Shown piece by piece: positions 42,324 through 50,200 of a stretch of DNA of 50,526 nt. Location of the stretch: NCBI GenBank assembly GCA_944386605.1, contig CALXBS010000008.1, positions 1-50,526 on the forward strand, given 5' to 3'. Made by a program: the position numbers and the translations under genes. Each line of letters starts with the position of its first letter. Position 1 is the first letter of the stretch. The notes under the pieces were generated by a model, which searched no databases, was not told the DNA's origin, and saw only the letters and a list, made by a program, of their open reading frames with translations. The DNA comes from an uncultured Clostridia bacterium (GTDB lineage Bacteria > Bacillota > Clostridia > TANB77 > CAG-465).

Positions 42324-42352
42324 AAGTCGTAAGTAAAATTACGGCTTTTTTT
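42324..42352 (+). terminator. Terminator after gltX
   Basis: AAGTCGTAA pairs with TTACGGCTT (one G-T pair), 6-nt loop, T7. Confidence 0.85.
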
Positions 42353-42589
42353 GTTGAAAAATAAAATAAGAAATGGTAGTATGCGAGTGTAATAGGGATA
42401 TTATAACCAGCAAACAAAAATTATGTTAATCAAAATTCTTGAAAGTATGATTGGACTACACACACACACACACACACACAACATAGTTTTAAAAATATGA
42501 AAAAATTATGTTGAGGTTTAATTCTACTAAAAAAGAATAAATAACATAAAAATGCAAAAACTAATGAAAACAAAAGAAAAGGAGGATAT
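42347..42589 (+). repeat. Duplicated leader region, copy A, upstream of the first Cna-B surface gene
   Basis: Aligns with 46991-47222 at high identity. Shared blocks include GAAAAATAAAATAAGAAATG, the AC repeat with its flanks GACTACAC and AACATAGTTTTA, and CTACTAAAAAAGAATAAATA. I see no convincing promoter within it. The similarity continues into the first 45 codons of both genes. Confidence 0.8.
42458..42480 (+). repeat. AC dinucleotide microsatellite, copy A
   Basis: A pure run of 23 nt of alternating A and C (11.5 units), ending 109 nt before the start codon of the first surface gene. A repeat of this length is prone to slipped-strand mutation. Confidence 0.95.
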
Positions 42590-45500
42590 ATGGAAAAGCA
42601 AGAAAAAGAAATAAAAAAGCAAAATGAAAATAAGAAAAAACGTAAAAGAAGAGTATCCATATTTACGGTATTTTTGTGCCTATTTTTAATTGTTACCATG
42701 TCAGTTATCACTATAGGAATGTTTACCCAGAAAAATGCAATAGAAGTAACAGATAATAACTGGAATATTAGTTTAGTCATGTATGATAGAAGTAGTGATA
42801 CACCAAATCAGGCTATTACAGATTTTACATGGAATGCAACAAATGAAGATGAAACAAAGCAATTAGCCATGCAAATAAACTATGCATGTACAACAGGAAA
42901 AGAATATCAAGCAGGAGAAATTATCATACAGATACCAGGAATAGCTAGAGATAGTTTTAGTGAATATTGGGATAATCCAACTGAATATAATGAGCAAACA
43001 TATGATGAATGGTTAGTAAATAATGTAGTTGTAGCAGCAGATAAACAAGACAGCAGTACGAAGCAATATGATTGGAGTTATGTATATGATGAAGAAAATA
43101 ATGTATATACATTTACCAATAATATGAAAGTAGCAGAAAATGAGCATTTTGAAGGAACGATACAAATTGTATATAATTTAAATCCAACATTTAAAATAGA
43201 AACGGATTTAGCGTATCAAGCAAAAATAAAGGAAAATATACAGTCCGATGAAATTATAGCAATGGAATCAAATGTATGTAATTTTCATTATACAAGTACG
43301 AAAAAAACTTATAGATTAGTTAAATCTGCAACAGCAGCTCCTAAAATAGATTTTACTCCAATTGAGGATATATTAGATAATTATTATTGGGTTAGATATT
43401 ATTTTGGTGTTTATGATAATGGTGATGGAATCATAAAAGCGTATGGTGAGGATAATAATTGGCTACCAAAATATGTTACTAATTGTATCAAAGAAGAATT
43501 ACCAGAAGGATGTGTATTATATGATAAGAATTTAAATAAAATAGAACCACGTGAAGGGAATACATATTATTATTTAGCAAATACTTCTTATTATGTAGGA
43601 TACCCAAAAGATCAGTATCAAGAAGGTGAAAAAATAACAAATAAAGCAGAATTATGGGGAAGATATGAAGATGAAGAAGAAATGCAAAAGTTAGCAGAAG
43701 GGGATGCGACAGTAAGCTTAGCAAATTTAAATTTTGAATACACAGGTAAGTTGTACAATATATCAAAGAGGCAAGGTCTGAATACTAATACGTATTTAAG
43801 TATGATAAAATCAGAACAGGGAGTAAGCCTGACATGGTGGTTATATCCAACAGCTTTTTATACAGATAGTAAAATGGATGTAGAAGTAGGAGATGATTTA
43901 TTATATATTACAAGAGAAAATGGAGAGATAACAAAGTTAGAAGAAGATGAGTATCATTTTGAAGGAGTATTAATCCCTACTTTCCGAACATATAATAAAT
44001 ATACTGGAGGTCAAGGAGAAGCATTAGTAGGATATGAATGGGATCTACAAGTAAGATATGCAGGAACAAATGAATACGTAAGTTATCAAACCGGAACAAC
44101 AGGAACAAATAGTCAAACAATAAAATTTAGTACTAAGGATATAGTTGGTGTAAAAGTAGTCATTAAAGATTTAGATAAAACTTTATATAATCCAACATCT
44201 TCACCTATCAATGTATATACCAATATACATACACGTGATTGTGTAGCAGGAGGATATATATATAATTTTGATTATTTGCAAGTATACCAAAAAGATGGAG
44301 AAGGAAATAGAACATTAGTAAACGAACCAACATTAAGTAGTTATGGCACAGAAGCTAAAAAGTTAAAAGTAGCAGAATATGATCAAGCAACTTATGGAAC
44401 CTACATGCAAAGAGCTGTTGATGATGCATATATATTAAATGGTTATTTTTCTTTATCTAATACTAAGAGCGGTTCTAATTTACAAAATGATGTAGCAGAA
44501 GAAAAATATACGTACGAATATAGATTAAGAAATGATTTAAGTTTGGATTATTATGAAGTAAATAAAGATGTAATTATAAAAAATTATGATATTTTACCAG
44601 AAGGAATGTATTTAAAATATAATGAAGAAGAGATTATAAATAATGTAGGGTTATATGATAATCAGTCTATATACGCGAAATTAAAATTAAAAGATGGAAC
44701 AAAGTTTAAAAACAAAACTGAATTATTAAATTATATAAAAGAACATACAGAAGTAGAAATAGATTATAACTATCAAGATAGTGGAAGAACAAAAATAAGT
44801 ATCATAACCAATTTAAATGAAATAGATTGGAGTTATTATTTATCTCATTCTTTACATAGTAATTATTTTTACATATACTTTGATATACAAGTAGAAATAC
44901 CATATGATAGTATATTAGAATATGGAACAAGCTATACAAATTATGTATATAGTATGTGGAATAATCAAGAATATAGTTATACTTACTCTAGTTCTTCTTT
45001 GAGAACTGATAATGGAACTGCTGATAGTTTAGCAAGTGATATTGATCAGGATGGTGATACTGAGGAGGGGCTTGTAGGAAATGTTTTTACCTTTGATATA
45101 ACACATGCAGTATCCTCACAACAAGCAGTGATTAAACAAGTAAGAACAGATTTAACACAAGGAAAATATGTAGAAGGAACTGCAGAAGTAAGTCCTAATG
45201 GAGAATATGATTATAAATTACGTGTGACAACTGGAGCAAATAGTATCAAAGATTTAATACTTTATGATAATATCGAAACAATTACAGATGGCTCTGGAGC
45301 AGATATAAGTCAAGGTTGGAAAGGAAGCTTTTTAGGTGTAGATACCAGTTATGCAGAATCAAAAGGATATGCACCAAAAGTATATTACTCTACTGAGTTA
45401 AATCCAGGCAAGTTAACGGAAGTGCCAGATAAATGGAATTTGTTAGATGATAGTGTAGATAAAAGTAGCGTAAAATCTATTTGTGTGGATTTAAGATATG

Positions 45501-46951
45501 ACGCAGATGGTGGAGAAATGGGACTTAGCCCAAATAATGTTGTATTTGTGTTAGTAAAAATGCAAGCACCAGATGATGAAAACTTAATGACATCAGCAAA
45601 TAATATGTTCTGGACAAATTGGAGAGCAATTGATCCATTAGGAGGAATCATTGATAATGTAGAAGGAATATATTCTAATCAAGTCAATGTAGAAATTAGT
45701 AAAAAAGGAATCACAACAAGTATTAGCGGACAAAAAACATGGATAGATGAAGAAAATAAGAATATCACAAGACCAGAAAGTATTGTTGTAAAACTAATGC
45801 AAGATGGAGTAGAATATGTAGCCAAAATAGTAACAGCAAATGATAATTGGAGCTATACATTTGAAAATGTACCAGTATATCGAAATAATGCTGGAGATCA
45901 ATATGAATATACCATAGAAGAAGAACCAGTAGAAAATTATATAACAAGTTATGAAGGAAATAATATTATCAATGAAGTAAATTTAACGGAATTTGAAGTA
46001 GAAAAAATATGGGATGATCATAACAATGAAAATCAAAAACGTCCAGAAAGTCTTGTAGTAGAATTAAAACAAGAAGGAAAAATAATACAAGAAGCTACAT
46101 TAAATGAATCTAATAATTGGAAACATACCTTTACAAACTTAGAAAAATATAACGAGTTAGGAGAAGAAATTATCTATACAGTAGATGAACAATCATTTAT
46201 CAATGACGAGTGGTATGTAAAAGAAATTGTAGGAGGAAAAATAACTAACAAATTTGTAGTACCAGATGAAAAAGTAAAAATCGTTGGAAGTAAAAGATGG
46301 GATGACAACAATAATTTAGCAGGAAAGCGTCCTGAAAGTATAGTATTACAAGTAAAAAATGGAGAAGAAGTAGTAACAGAACAAGTGGTAACAGAAGAAA
46401 GCAATTGGAGCTATGAATTTGAACTTGCAAAATACGATGAAAGTGGAAATGAAATAGTCTATACGATAGATGAAAAAGAAGTAGAAAGTAAATTTTATGA
46501 AAAGGTAGGAGTAGAAGGAAATGTAGTAATAAACAAATTTGTAGTACCAGATGAAAAGATAGAAATATGGGTAGATAAAAAATGGGAAGATGAAGATAAC
46601 AAATATGGAAAACGCCCAGAAAGTGTAATACTACAAATTAAAAATGGAGAAACAGTCGTAGAAGAAGTAGAAGTAAGTGAAGGGAACAATTGGAGACATA
46701 AATTTGAGCTTACAAAATATGATGAGTTAGGCAATGAAATAAATTACACCATAGATGAAAAAGAAACTGCTGAGTATTATGAAAAACGTATTGAAGGAAA
46801 TACCGTTATTAATACTTGTACCTATACGCCACCAACAGATACATCGGATATATCTATTTGGGTATATGTAGTGGTAGCAATCATTGCAATAGTTGGAATT
46901 GGAGTATTTACCATTGTAAAAGTAAGACAAAAGAAAAGTTTGAAAAAGTAA
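42590..46951 (+). CDS. Giant Cna-B surface protein, first paralog
   Basis: 1453 residues; AAAGGAGG before the ATG. Order: strongly basic N-terminus and hydrophobic segment (about 24-45; export signal or anchor); a large external region (50-1035) of unknown beta-rich domains, including a DIDQDGDTEEG calcium-loop-like motif near 817; four Cna-B-type repeats starting near 1040, 1133, 1227 and 1322, each with a W-D/E start, RPESxxV and YTIDE/YTVDE end; then TPPTDTSD (from 1413), a membrane span (about 1423-1443) and the basic tail KVRQKKSLKK. The end has the layout of a sortase substrate, but TPPTD is not a classic LPXTG. It is probably a wall-attached stalk or adhesin. Confidence 0.85.
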   Translation: MEKQEKEIKKQNENKKKRKRRVSIFTVFLCLFLIVTMSVITIGMFTQKNAIEVTDNNWNISLVMYDRSSDTPNQAITDFTWNATNEDETKQLAMQINYACTTGKEYQAGEIIIQIPGIARDSFSEYWDNPTEYNEQTYDEWLVNNVVVAADKQDSSTKQYDWSYVYDEENNVYTFTNNMKVAENEHFEGTIQIVYNLNPTFKIETDLAYQAKIKENIQSDEIIAMESNVCNFHYTSTKKTYRLVKSATAAPKIDFTPIEDILDNYYWVRYYFGVYDNGDGIIKAYGEDNNWLPKYVTNCIKEELPEGCVLYDKNLNKIEPREGNTYYYLANTSYYVGYPKDQYQEGEKITNKAELWGRYEDEEEMQKLAEGDATVSLANLNFEYTGKLYNISKRQGLNTNTYLSMIKSEQGVSLTWWLYPTAFYTDSKMDVEVGDDLLYITRENGEITKLEEDEYHFEGVLIPTFRTYNKYTGGQGEALVGYEWDLQVRYAGTNEYVSYQTGTTGTNSQTIKFSTKDIVGVKVVIKDLDKTLYNPTSSPINVYTNIHTRDCVAGGYIYNFDYLQVYQKDGEGNRTLVNEPTLSSYGTEAKKLKVAEYDQATYGTYMQRAVDDAYILNGYFSLSNTKSGSNLQNDVAEEKYTYEYRLRNDLSLDYYEVNKDVIIKNYDILPEGMYLKYNEEEIINNVGLYDNQSIYAKLKLKDGTKFKNKTELLNYIKEHTEVEIDYNYQDSGRTKISIITNLNEIDWSYYLSHSLHSNYFYIYFDIQVEIPYDSILEYGTSYTNYVYSMWNNQEYSYTYSSSSLRTDNGTADSLASDIDQDGDTEEGLVGNVFTFDITHAVSSQQAVIKQVRTDLTQGKYVEGTAEVSPNGEYDYKLRVTTGANSIKDLILYDNIETITDGSGADISQGWKGSFLGVDTSYAESKGYAPKVYYSTELNPGKLTEVPDKWNLLDDSVDKSSVKSICVDLRYDADGGEMGLSPNNVVFVLVKMQAPDDENLMTSANNMFWTNWRAIDPLGGIIDNVEGIYSNQVNVEISKKGITTSISGQKTWIDEENKNITRPESIVVKLMQDGVEYVAKIVTANDNWSYTFENVPVYRNNAGDQYEYTIEEEPVENYITSYEGNNIINEVNLTEFEVEKIWDDHNNENQKRPESLVVELKQEGKIIQEATLNESNNWKHTFTNLEKYNELGEEIIYTVDEQSFINDEWYVKEIVGGKITNKFVVPDEKVKIVGSKRWDDNNNLAGKRPESIVLQVKNGEEVVTEQVVTEESNWSYEFELAKYDESGNEIVYTIDEKEVESKFYEKVGVEGNVVINKFVVPDEKIEIWVDKKWEDEDNKYGKRPESVILQIKNGETVVEEVEVSEGNNWRHKFELTKYDELGNEINYTIDEKETAEYYEKRIEGNTVINTCTYTPPTDTSDISIWVYVVVAIIAIVGIGVFTIVKVRQKKSLKK

Positions 46952-46960
46952 ATAAATACA

Positions 46961-46997
46961 AATCGTAAGTAGTGAAAAATTACTTGCGATTTTTTTG
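46961..46997 (+). terminator. Terminator after the first Cna-B surface gene
   Basis: AATCGTAAGTA pairs with TACTTGCGATT (one G-T pair), then T7. It is similar in sequence to the gltX terminator, so the terminator is part of the duplicated unit. Confidence 0.85.
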
Positions 46998-47222
46998 TTG
47001 AAAAATAAAATAAGAAATGGTAGTATGCGTGTGTAATAGGAATATTGCTGAAAGGTATAAACATTTATGTTAACAAAAAGCTTTAAAAGTATGATTAGAC
47101 TACACACACACACACACACACACAACATAGTTTTAGAAAAATTATGTTTATTCAAATCTACTAAAAAAGAATAAATAACATAAAAATGAAAAACAAATAA
47201 GTACTAAAGAAAGGAGACATGT
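46991..47222 (+). repeat. Duplicated leader region, copy B, upstream of the second Cna-B surface gene
   Basis: Counterpart of 42347-42589: same blocks in the same order, about 10 nt shorter, with scattered substitutions. It includes an AC repeat of identical length. Confidence 0.8.
47102..47124 (+). repeat. AC dinucleotide microsatellite, copy B
   Basis: A pure 23-nt alternating AC run, 98 nt before the start codon of the second surface gene, the same length as copy A. Confidence 0.95.
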
Positions 47223-50200
47223 ATGGAAAAGCAAGAAAAAGAAATAAAAAAGCAAAATGAAAACAAGAAAAAACGTAAAAGAAAAGTATCCATATTTACG
47301 ATATTTTTGTGGCTATTTTTAATTGTTACCATGTCAGTTATCACTATAGGAATGTTTACCCAGAAAAATGCAATTGAAGTAACCGATGAGAATTGGAAAG
47401 TAGAACTTATGATGTATGATAGAAATAGTGATACACCTAATCAACCAATTACTGACTTTACTTGGAATGCAACAAATGAAAGTGATACAAGACAACTAGC
47501 AATGCAAATTAATTATACCTGTTTAACTGGAAAAGCATATGCGCCTGGTGAATTGCAAATTTGTATTCCGTCTTGGAATCAAAAGAAAAATTTTAGTGAA
47601 GAAAATCAAAGAGAAAGTTTAAAAGTAACAAGTGCTATTGGTAATTCTGATAATTGGAAATATCAATATGATAGAAATTCTAACATGTATGTGTTTACAA
47701 ATCTTTATTCTATAGAATCAGGCGAGAATTTTCAAGGAAGTGTTCAGATTGTATATGATTTAAAACCAATTTTTAAAATACAAACAGATTTAGAAGTTAG
47801 TGCTACTTTAAAAGAAAATATTCAAAATGCAGATACCATTATTACTGCAACATCTAATAGTTGTCATTTTCATTATAATGGTAATAAGAAAAATTATACT
47901 TTGAAAAAAGGATCATATATTAATTCAAATACTGATTATACGAAAATAGATGCTATTGTGGATGATTATTATTGGACTAGATATAAATTTTCAACAAGTA
48001 CAGATCTTAATATTATCAAAGCATTAGATGAGAATTCAAGACCAATTGTTTATAATCAAGTAAATAAATGTATTAAAGAAGTGTTACCAGAGGGGTGTGT
48101 TCTTTATGATGAGAATTTAGATCCAGTAGAAGCTACTGAAAATAATGAATATTATTATTTGTATACTGATAAATTTTATTATGTAGGATATCCAAAGTCG
48201 AAATATAATGAAGGGGATAAGATAACCAATACTGCAGAACTGTGGGGAAGATATGAAGATGAAGAAGAAATGCAAAAGCTTGCAGAAGATAGTGTTGAGA
48301 CTACTTTAACAAATTTAAATTTTGAGTATACAGGTAATTTATATGAACTATCTAAGGAAAATGTTGATTTTTCTACTTATCAAAGTATTGTAAGATATGG
48401 ACTGCAGGATTTAGAATGGTCGCTTTCTCCAATAGCTTTTTATACAGATTCTGTAATGGATGTGGAAATAGGGGATGATTTATTATATGCTGATAATGAG
48501 AATGAAGATCCTGTAAAATTAAGCGATGACGATTATCATTTTACAAAAATGTATATTCCTGTTTTTCACTCCTATAATAAATATAATGGAAGTAATGGAG
48601 AAGTTTTAAATGGATATGAATGGGAGTTACAAGTAAGATATGCTGGACAAGATGAATATGTAAGTTATCAAACGGGAGTAACAGGCAATTCACAAAAATA
48701 TATCTATTTTGAAAGAAAAGATATAGTAGGAATAAAGTTAATTATTAAGAATTTAGATAAAACATTATATGATGGAGAAATAAAAGTTTTTACCAATATT
48801 CATACGACCAAAATAAAAGCATTGCCAAGTCATGGGGAATCTTCAAGAGTTTATAATTATGATTATATGATTGTATCTACTACAGATGAAAATGGTGAGA
48901 AAAAAATATTAAATGAATCTGCTTATTATAACATGAGTATAAGTTTAGCAGAGGAAATAAAAGAAAGTGATTTAGAAAATTTTGGTACTTATTTATATAG
49001 AACAGGTGGTTTTTATCCTATTTTTTTAGGATTTTTGGATTTTACAGTGTATCAAAATAATCCACGTTGTTATGTAACTGGTTCAAATGAATTTTATACG
49101 ATGGTATATGAATATTACGCACAGATAAATTCAACATATTATCCTGTTGATAATAATCCAGTCATCAAGCTTTACGATCTTTTACCTAAAGGTGCAATAT
49201 TAGAGAATACCGTAGAAGAAGTAATTAATTCAATCAGTGTAGATTCAAGTGCATATAGTAACTTTAAATTAAAAGATGGAACTACATTTTCTACTAAAGC
49301 TAAGTTTAATGAATACATTAGAAAACATACTACAGTAGAAGTTGTAGAAAATTACAAAAATACAGGAAGAGTAGCTGTCATTATTAATATAGCTTTACAT
49401 GATTTAGATTGGACTTATTATGCAGAACATGAAGAAAGTTTTAGAATTATTGGTTATGTCAATGCTAAGATACCATATGATAGTATATTAGAATATGGTG
49501 TAAATTACAAAAATGAAATTTATGCTATGTTAGATGACGAAGAAACAAGTGAAAATATGGGAGAAATTGATGCAATTGATTATTGGGGACCTTCTGGATA
49601 TGATTCTAAAGCAACTTATGATGATGGACGAATTGAAGAAATTATGAAAGATATAGATAATGATGGTATTACAGATGAGAACGTAGTTTATTCATATAAA
49701 AATAAGTCTATTGCACATGCTTCTTCTTCACAACAAAGTGTTATTACAAAAGTAAGAACAGATTTAACAGAAGGAGAATATGTTACTGGAACCGCAGAAG
49801 TAAGTCCAGGAGAAGAATATGATTATAAACTACGTGTAACCACCGGAGCAAATAGCATTAAAGATTTGATTCTTTATGATCATATTGAAACAATAATGGA
49901 TGGATCTGGAGCAGATGTAAGTACTGGTTGGAAAGGAAGTTTCTTAGGAGTAGATACCAGTTATGCCGAATCAAAAGGATATGCTCCAAAGGTATATTAT
50001 TCAACAGAATTAAATCCAGGAAAATTAACCGAAGTACCAGATAAATGGCTGTTATTAGATGATAATGTAGATAAAAGTACCGTAAAATCAATTTGTGTAG
50101 ATTTAAGATATAAATCAGATGGAAGTGAAATGGAGCTTGGAGCAAATGATGTTGTATTTGTATTAGTAAGAATGCAAGCACCTGATGATATCAATTTAAA

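Follow-up and report, generated by a model that had tools for sequence, protein, structure and literature searches.

Simple-sequence contingency loci of the Haemophilus type carry slippage-prone repeats in the promoter or in the coding sequence of surface and restriction-modification genes, and genes for HsdS proteins, methyltransferases and acyltransferases belong to the kinds that are classically phase-variable. Repression of a terminator by a coupled ribosome is known from pyrBI. In Streptococcus gallolyticus, mutants showed that GCAGA repeats within a leader-peptide ORF switch transcription of pil1, the ribosome entering a terminator (Danne et al., 2014; PMC3894217); the same layout was reported for pil3 (PMC3894217). 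In E. coli, a ribosome that stops near a terminator represses that terminator (PMC4824070). A search of the openly licensed literature found no paper on an AC/His-Thr leader of the kind presented below.

Twin AC leaders in the window and their genomic family

The window is a stretch of 50,526 nt, contig C8 of the assembly of an uncultured Clostridia bacterium (G000; 1.66 Mb, 92% complete). Two of its genes each stand behind a leader with a pure AC tract, and their features are collected in Table 1. The leaders (42346-42589 and 46990-47222) aligned in four blocks of 87-96% identity, and a block of 89% identity (42549-42765 and 47182-47398) extended from the leader into the first codons of both genes. 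The first-pass annotation had described twin AC repeats of equal length in duplicated leaders, followed by near-identical gene starts, and both points were borne out. It had also spoken of two giant Cna-B genes; Cna_B domains were indeed found in both, as four stretches in gene 1 and one in the present part of gene 2, and the size holds for the complete gene 1, gene 2 being open at the contig end with at least 1101 aa. The start codons lay 109 nt (gene 1) and 98 nt (gene 2) past the AC tract.

Table 1. Positions of the two leaders, their predicted elements and their genes in the window
Feature	Position	Strand	Basis or remark
Predicted promoter, gene 1: TTGAAA, 17 nt, TAGTAT	42354-42382	+	9/12 consensus, TG before second hexamer; kept in paralogous leaders
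Leader ORF 1, MLIKILESMIGLHTHTHTHNIVLKI (stop), AC tract inside, without clear Shine-Dalgarno	42423-42500	+	sequence
AC tract 1, 23 nt	42458-42480	+	sequence
Leader hairpin, AC tract as 5′ bulge	42436-42542	+	fold z -3.57
Gene 1, Cna_B surface protein, 1453 aa	42590-46951	+	ORF and domain search
Terminator 3′ of gene 1, abutting promoter 2	46960-46997	+	prediction
Predicted promoter, gene 2: TTGAAA, 17 nt, TAGTAT	46998-47026	+	sigma-70-like match
Leader ORF 2, MLTKSFKSMIRLHTHTHTHNIVLEKLCLFKSTKKE (stop)	47067-47174	+	sequence
AC tract 2, 23 nt	47102-47124	+	sequence
Leader hairpin, weaker form	47080-47186	+	fold z -2.64
Gene 2, Cna_B, 1101 aa seen, open at contig end	47223-50525	+	ORF and domain search

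The twin leader was confirmed, and it is far larger than a twin. The window pair made up two of the 49 AC tracts of at least 19 nt in the genome, all of which ended in CAA; ACT preceded the tract in an alignable leader in 46 of the 49, the exceptions being L039, L053 and the contig-cut L067. Tract lengths ran from 19 to 51 nt, 23 nt being found in 24 of the 49, and one 50-nt tract was cut by a contig end. Since the pattern CT(AC)8.5 occurred 48 times in this genome and the reversed pattern not once, the AC leaders are not due to chance. When the leader segment that precedes the tract served as a BLAST query, 40 matches were obtained, with scoring limited to 40 of the 87 candidates; the paralogous leaders were 79-90% identical to the query, and the AC tract was present in all 30 matched leaders that were fetched. 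Residues 1-257 of gene 1 matched 52 places in the genome of the window and 22 in G004; the ORFs at those 52 places totalled 53,936 codons, equal to 9.7% of the assembly. Four family-search matches to sortase in the window's genome fit cell-wall anchoring and have no bearing on the leader.

Recombination that deletes or swaps one of the genes had likewise been suggested from the duplication, and for this there were hints only, namely contigs ending in AC tracts and a leader shortened within its tract. The contigs in question (L409, L410, L411 and L419, all of the window's genome) terminated inside the tract, as is expected of an assembly broken by repeats or heterogeneous in their length. The shortened leader (L428, region G000:C11:36119-36223) was cut within the AC tract with only 10 nt left and unrelated sequence after it, as if recombined or deleted. 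Loss of mismatch repair was considered as a cause of the wide spread in tract length and was rejected, MutS being found in the window's genome.

Elements flanking the tract: a predicted promoter, the leader ORF and, in relatives, a terminator

Wholly upstream of each window tract stood a match to a sigma-70-like promoter, its spacer being 17 nt, and the sequence TARTATGC was kept in 34 of 37 aligned leaders, as counted by eye (L038, L039 and L056 deviate). With the promoter match so placed and conserved, transcription is predicted to include the AC repeat, which begins about 70 nt from the predicted transcript start. Neither window tract fell between the -35 and -10 boxes (Table 1), neither had the vlhA-type position just upstream of the promoter, and neither lay inside the main ORF, as a coding-sequence contingency repeat does. 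The first-pass annotation had likened the repeats to the promoter switch of Haemophilus fimbriae; judged from the predicted promoter, the window repeat is not a promoter-spacing repeat, and that analogy is wrong.

An ATG-led leader ORF was found to read through the AC tract as (His-Thr)n, in the form ...L(HT)nH..., and an in-frame ATG stood upstream of the tract in 40 of 43 leaders of the window's genome. A Shine-Dalgarno sequence before this ORF was clear in most relatives and in neither of the two window leaders. The pil1-type arrangement, that is a repeat in a short leader ORF 3′ of a predicted promoter, was seen both in the window and in relatives. Exact AC leaders were also present in G004 and G015, which belong to the same genus as the window's genome. 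Across the order, the CT(AC)8.5 leader was found in 32 of 385 genomes and in 15 of 48 genera, against three hits in total for the reversed control, and none of the 373 genomes from the other orders in the class had it (391 searched, 18 of them in the order).

From 25 genomes other than that of the window, 140 loci were fetched; about 16 contig-end tracts and the genomes G031, G262, G273, G284, G344 and G358 stood outside this set, and for outside-family genomes with more than 10 CT(AC)8.5 hits only places among the matches listed entered it. Fifteen loci with less than 110 nt downstream were dropped, leaving 125, and a terminator call required a T-run together with a hairpin at least as stable as -9 kcal/mol. 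In most of the fetched loci the leader ORF had the form M...L(HT)n and was led by a Shine-Dalgarno sequence. An intrinsic terminator stood between leader ORF and gene at 104 of the 125 loci, and exactly one reading frame was open into the terminator hairpin at 96 of these 104, compared with 29.4 expected from dinucleotide shuffles. The stop of the open frame fell inside the hairpin at 88 loci. No frame was open at L249 and L259 (G015), L284 (G011), L287 (G027), L337 (G038) and L348 (G058), and two were open at L277 and L304. As the loci are related, the test was repeated on samples to which each of 17 genomes contributed a single locus picked at random; over 2000 draws the median tail probability was 9e-7 and the 95th percentile 1e-4. 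Hairpin centres in G015 differed by multiples of three at 22 of 22 loci; the steps in hairpin position were less clean than this in G004, G038 and G307.

The frame set by the assembled tract stopped before the hairpin at 93 of the 104 loci and entered it at 11, one each in G004, G006, G015, G038, G233, G239, G348 and G354 and three in G307. The on-frame locus of G006 (L272) had an interrupted AC tract of 15 nt, and the gene behind this leader resembles one for an IS200-type transposase. At five further loci of G058 no terminator was called by the finder used. Along L341-L348 of the same genome, a very long hairpin-like stretch followed the leader and the longest frame stopped at +30; most of these stretches were not called as terminators.

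We propose that the AC tracts are slippage-prone repeats, each within the short leader ORF that precedes a member of a large, dispersed family of surface proteins. A change by one AC unit, up or down, would shift the leader reading frame 3′ of the tract. In most relatives, two of the frames would stop early, so that the intrinsic terminator could form and the gene would be off; the remaining frame would take the ribosome into the terminator hairpin, transcription would continue and the gene would be on. Slipped-strand switching had been suggested for the window genes from the repeats themselves. For the family, the layouts described here make such switching well supported, acting presumably through a leader-peptide attenuator and not through a promoter. 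What speaks for it is the position of the tract in leader ORFs before terminators, and in coding sequences of relatives, together with tract lengths that differ between copies and between phage loci (see below). A promoter-type action is not supported, and in the window's own species there is neither a terminator nor a single open frame. Tract lengths were taken from metagenome assemblies; in G004 they were 23 nt in 22 of 25 cases, indicating that slippage is not rampant in the consensus.

The leader of the window's species and alternative readings

Among the 43 leaders analysed in the window's genome, 13 reached the gene start within 33-54 nt and 30 were long or had no called start. The two window leaders had no intrinsic terminator between leader ORF and gene, and of all 43 only L023, L034 and L039, which are weak or odd cases, had a called hairpin with a T-run ahead of the gene. 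The window's leaders also had no constant open frame after the tract. Frame 0 stopped 3 nt past the tract in 37 of the 43 and the other two frames varied; in the short leaders the phase 2 frame passed the gene start codon in 11 of 13, which may simply follow from low T content. With the terminator absent, the frames not maintained and the readout different, the window leaders were not classed as pil1-type attenuators. On sequence comparison they are homologous to the leaders of the relatives, with what appears as a different readout.

The long leaders were predicted to fold as a hairpin in which the AC tract forms a bulge (z -3.57 and -2.64 for the first and second window copies, -8.80 for L040). 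On 21 aligned leaders, 89.6% of cells were paired in this hairpin, compared with at most 46% when the alignment was slid. Together with the missing terminator and the unmaintained frames, such folding is what would be expected if, in the window's species, the leader were a structural RNA element, serving stability or presenting the AC bulge to a factor that binds it, with tract length carrying little information. However, the 13 short leaders mostly lacked the 3′ arms and still kept the tract, covariation in the hairpin was weak (its score was reached by 36 of 500 shuffles), and the design of the relatives relies on frame, not on structure. We regard a purely structural role as unlikely, while ranking it first among the alternatives. 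A search of the leaders with Rfam at gathering thresholds found nothing. The idea that the leader fold masks the main ribosome binding site was not supported, the mean unpaired values being 0.93 and 0.76. In the long leaders (for example window 42420-42560), the 3′ half resembled an inverted 5′ half minus the tract, and the outermost pair can bury the leader ATG.

Attenuation by His/Thr supply, sensed through the HTHTHT leader peptide, would account for peptides rich in His and Thr codons in front of terminators. Codons of such an attenuator are kept at the amino-acid level with synonymous drift, and this was not the case here: a degenerate pattern with all synonymous His and Thr codons added one extra locus only (G006), from which it follows that the tract is kept pure as DNA. 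The assembled frame, moreover, mostly stops before the hairpin, and we consider amino-acid sensing very improbable. The same low standing is given to a tract without function that was copied along with its genes by duplication. The identity of the paralogous leaders agrees with such copying, but the tract has stayed pure although its flanks diverge widely across G000, G004 and G015, it is common to the 32 genomes of 15 genera and precedes several types of gene, and the one-frame statistic departs far from expectation. The weakest reading, a promoter-spacing or upstream-activator switch of the Haemophilus fimbriae or M. gallisepticum vlhA type, has in its favor a dinucleotide repeat upstream of surface genes and, as in vlhA, a large gene family (PMC6258824), and it is barely credible with the predicted promoter wholly upstream of the tract in conserved form and with a Shine-Dalgarno sequence, leader ORF and terminator surrounding the tract in relatives.

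At the two window genes the terminator has gone and a long hairpin with a tract bulge is predicted, and here the tract would still act through translation of the leader. Taken as a whole, an explanation in which slippage in the leader ORF sets the frame, the frame gates a terminator in relatives and the window tract acts via leader translation seems to us probable.

Target genes and comparison with described switches

The downstream genes, classified by an N-terminal motif pattern of our own, were pilin-like in most genomes and Cna-B-family-like in G004, and Pfam searches identified a BspA-type LRR protein, a sugar transferase and a DegT aminotransferase behind the leaders. At five loci of relatives the AC tract was situated within the coding sequence itself: in frame in the acyltransferases L294 and L358 and in the HsdS gene L354, and out of frame in the HsdS gene L353 and the DNA methyltransferase L350. 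These five are candidate phase-variable glycan and DNA-methylation genes.

Two IMG/VR contigs, L365 and L370, carried a NAVTLEAL(HT)n leader, apparently at the same locus, with tracts of 29 and 25 nt, respectively, and a third (L367) ended within an AC tract. On L365 (3640-3730, minus strand) and L370 (485-560, minus strand) the phage AC leader had its own Shine-Dalgarno sequence and was followed by a hairpin. From reading of the ORFs, the phage leaders apparently lie between tail-region genes; Pfam found nothing on the phage ORF after the leader, and no window-type leader was seen in the viral contigs.

A wider picture can be drawn only tentatively, and we hold it possible but doubtful. In a whole lineage of uncultured Clostridia, AC slippage in leader ORFs would control the set of surface genes, which number up to about 50 and take up as much as a tenth of a genome; most of them would be off, and independent chance, not a master locus, would turn one or a few on at a time. 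Phages of these bacteria would have this switch too, among their tail genes, and in the window's species a tract-reading hairpin of a new kind would have taken the place of the terminator. A mechanism shown for two pilus operons of one Streptococcus appears to operate on a genome scale in uncultured Clostridia. It would act there on surface proteins and sugar transferases, and its coding form on restriction-modification genes. As the on/off state of each gene would be predictable from sequence, long-read metagenomes could serve to measure surface variation. The exception is the window's species, which could show a second readout of the same AC repeat.

Compared with Haemophilus-type loci, the coding type of repeat is present in relatives, whereas the window tract stands outside the main coding sequence and does not separate promoter boxes. 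Mycoplasma gallisepticum vlhA is alike in being a large family of surface genes, each preceded by a short repeat that varies in length; its GAA repeat, however, is placed about 40 nt before the start of the transcript (PMC6258824), whereas the AC repeat is predicted to be transcribed. In ribosome-coupled repression of terminators, control is physiological (PMC4824070), in contrast to the hypermutable repeat proposed here. The closest systems are pil1 and pil3. They share with the relatives' loci a non-triplet repeat in an RBS-led leader ORF, an upstream promoter and a terminator before surface genes; at the pil loci a frameshift makes the leader peptide long enough to reach into the hairpin, and the genes are then switched on (PMC3894217). 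The layout of the relatives matches this in its sequence-testable features. The pil loci have a terminator, whereas the leaders of the window lack one; their repeat is GCAGA at two loci, whereas here it is AC at tens of loci per genome, in an order of Clostridia and a few phages. The putative switch of the relatives would thus be explained by a known principle, that of pil1, with a new repeat unit and on a new scale.
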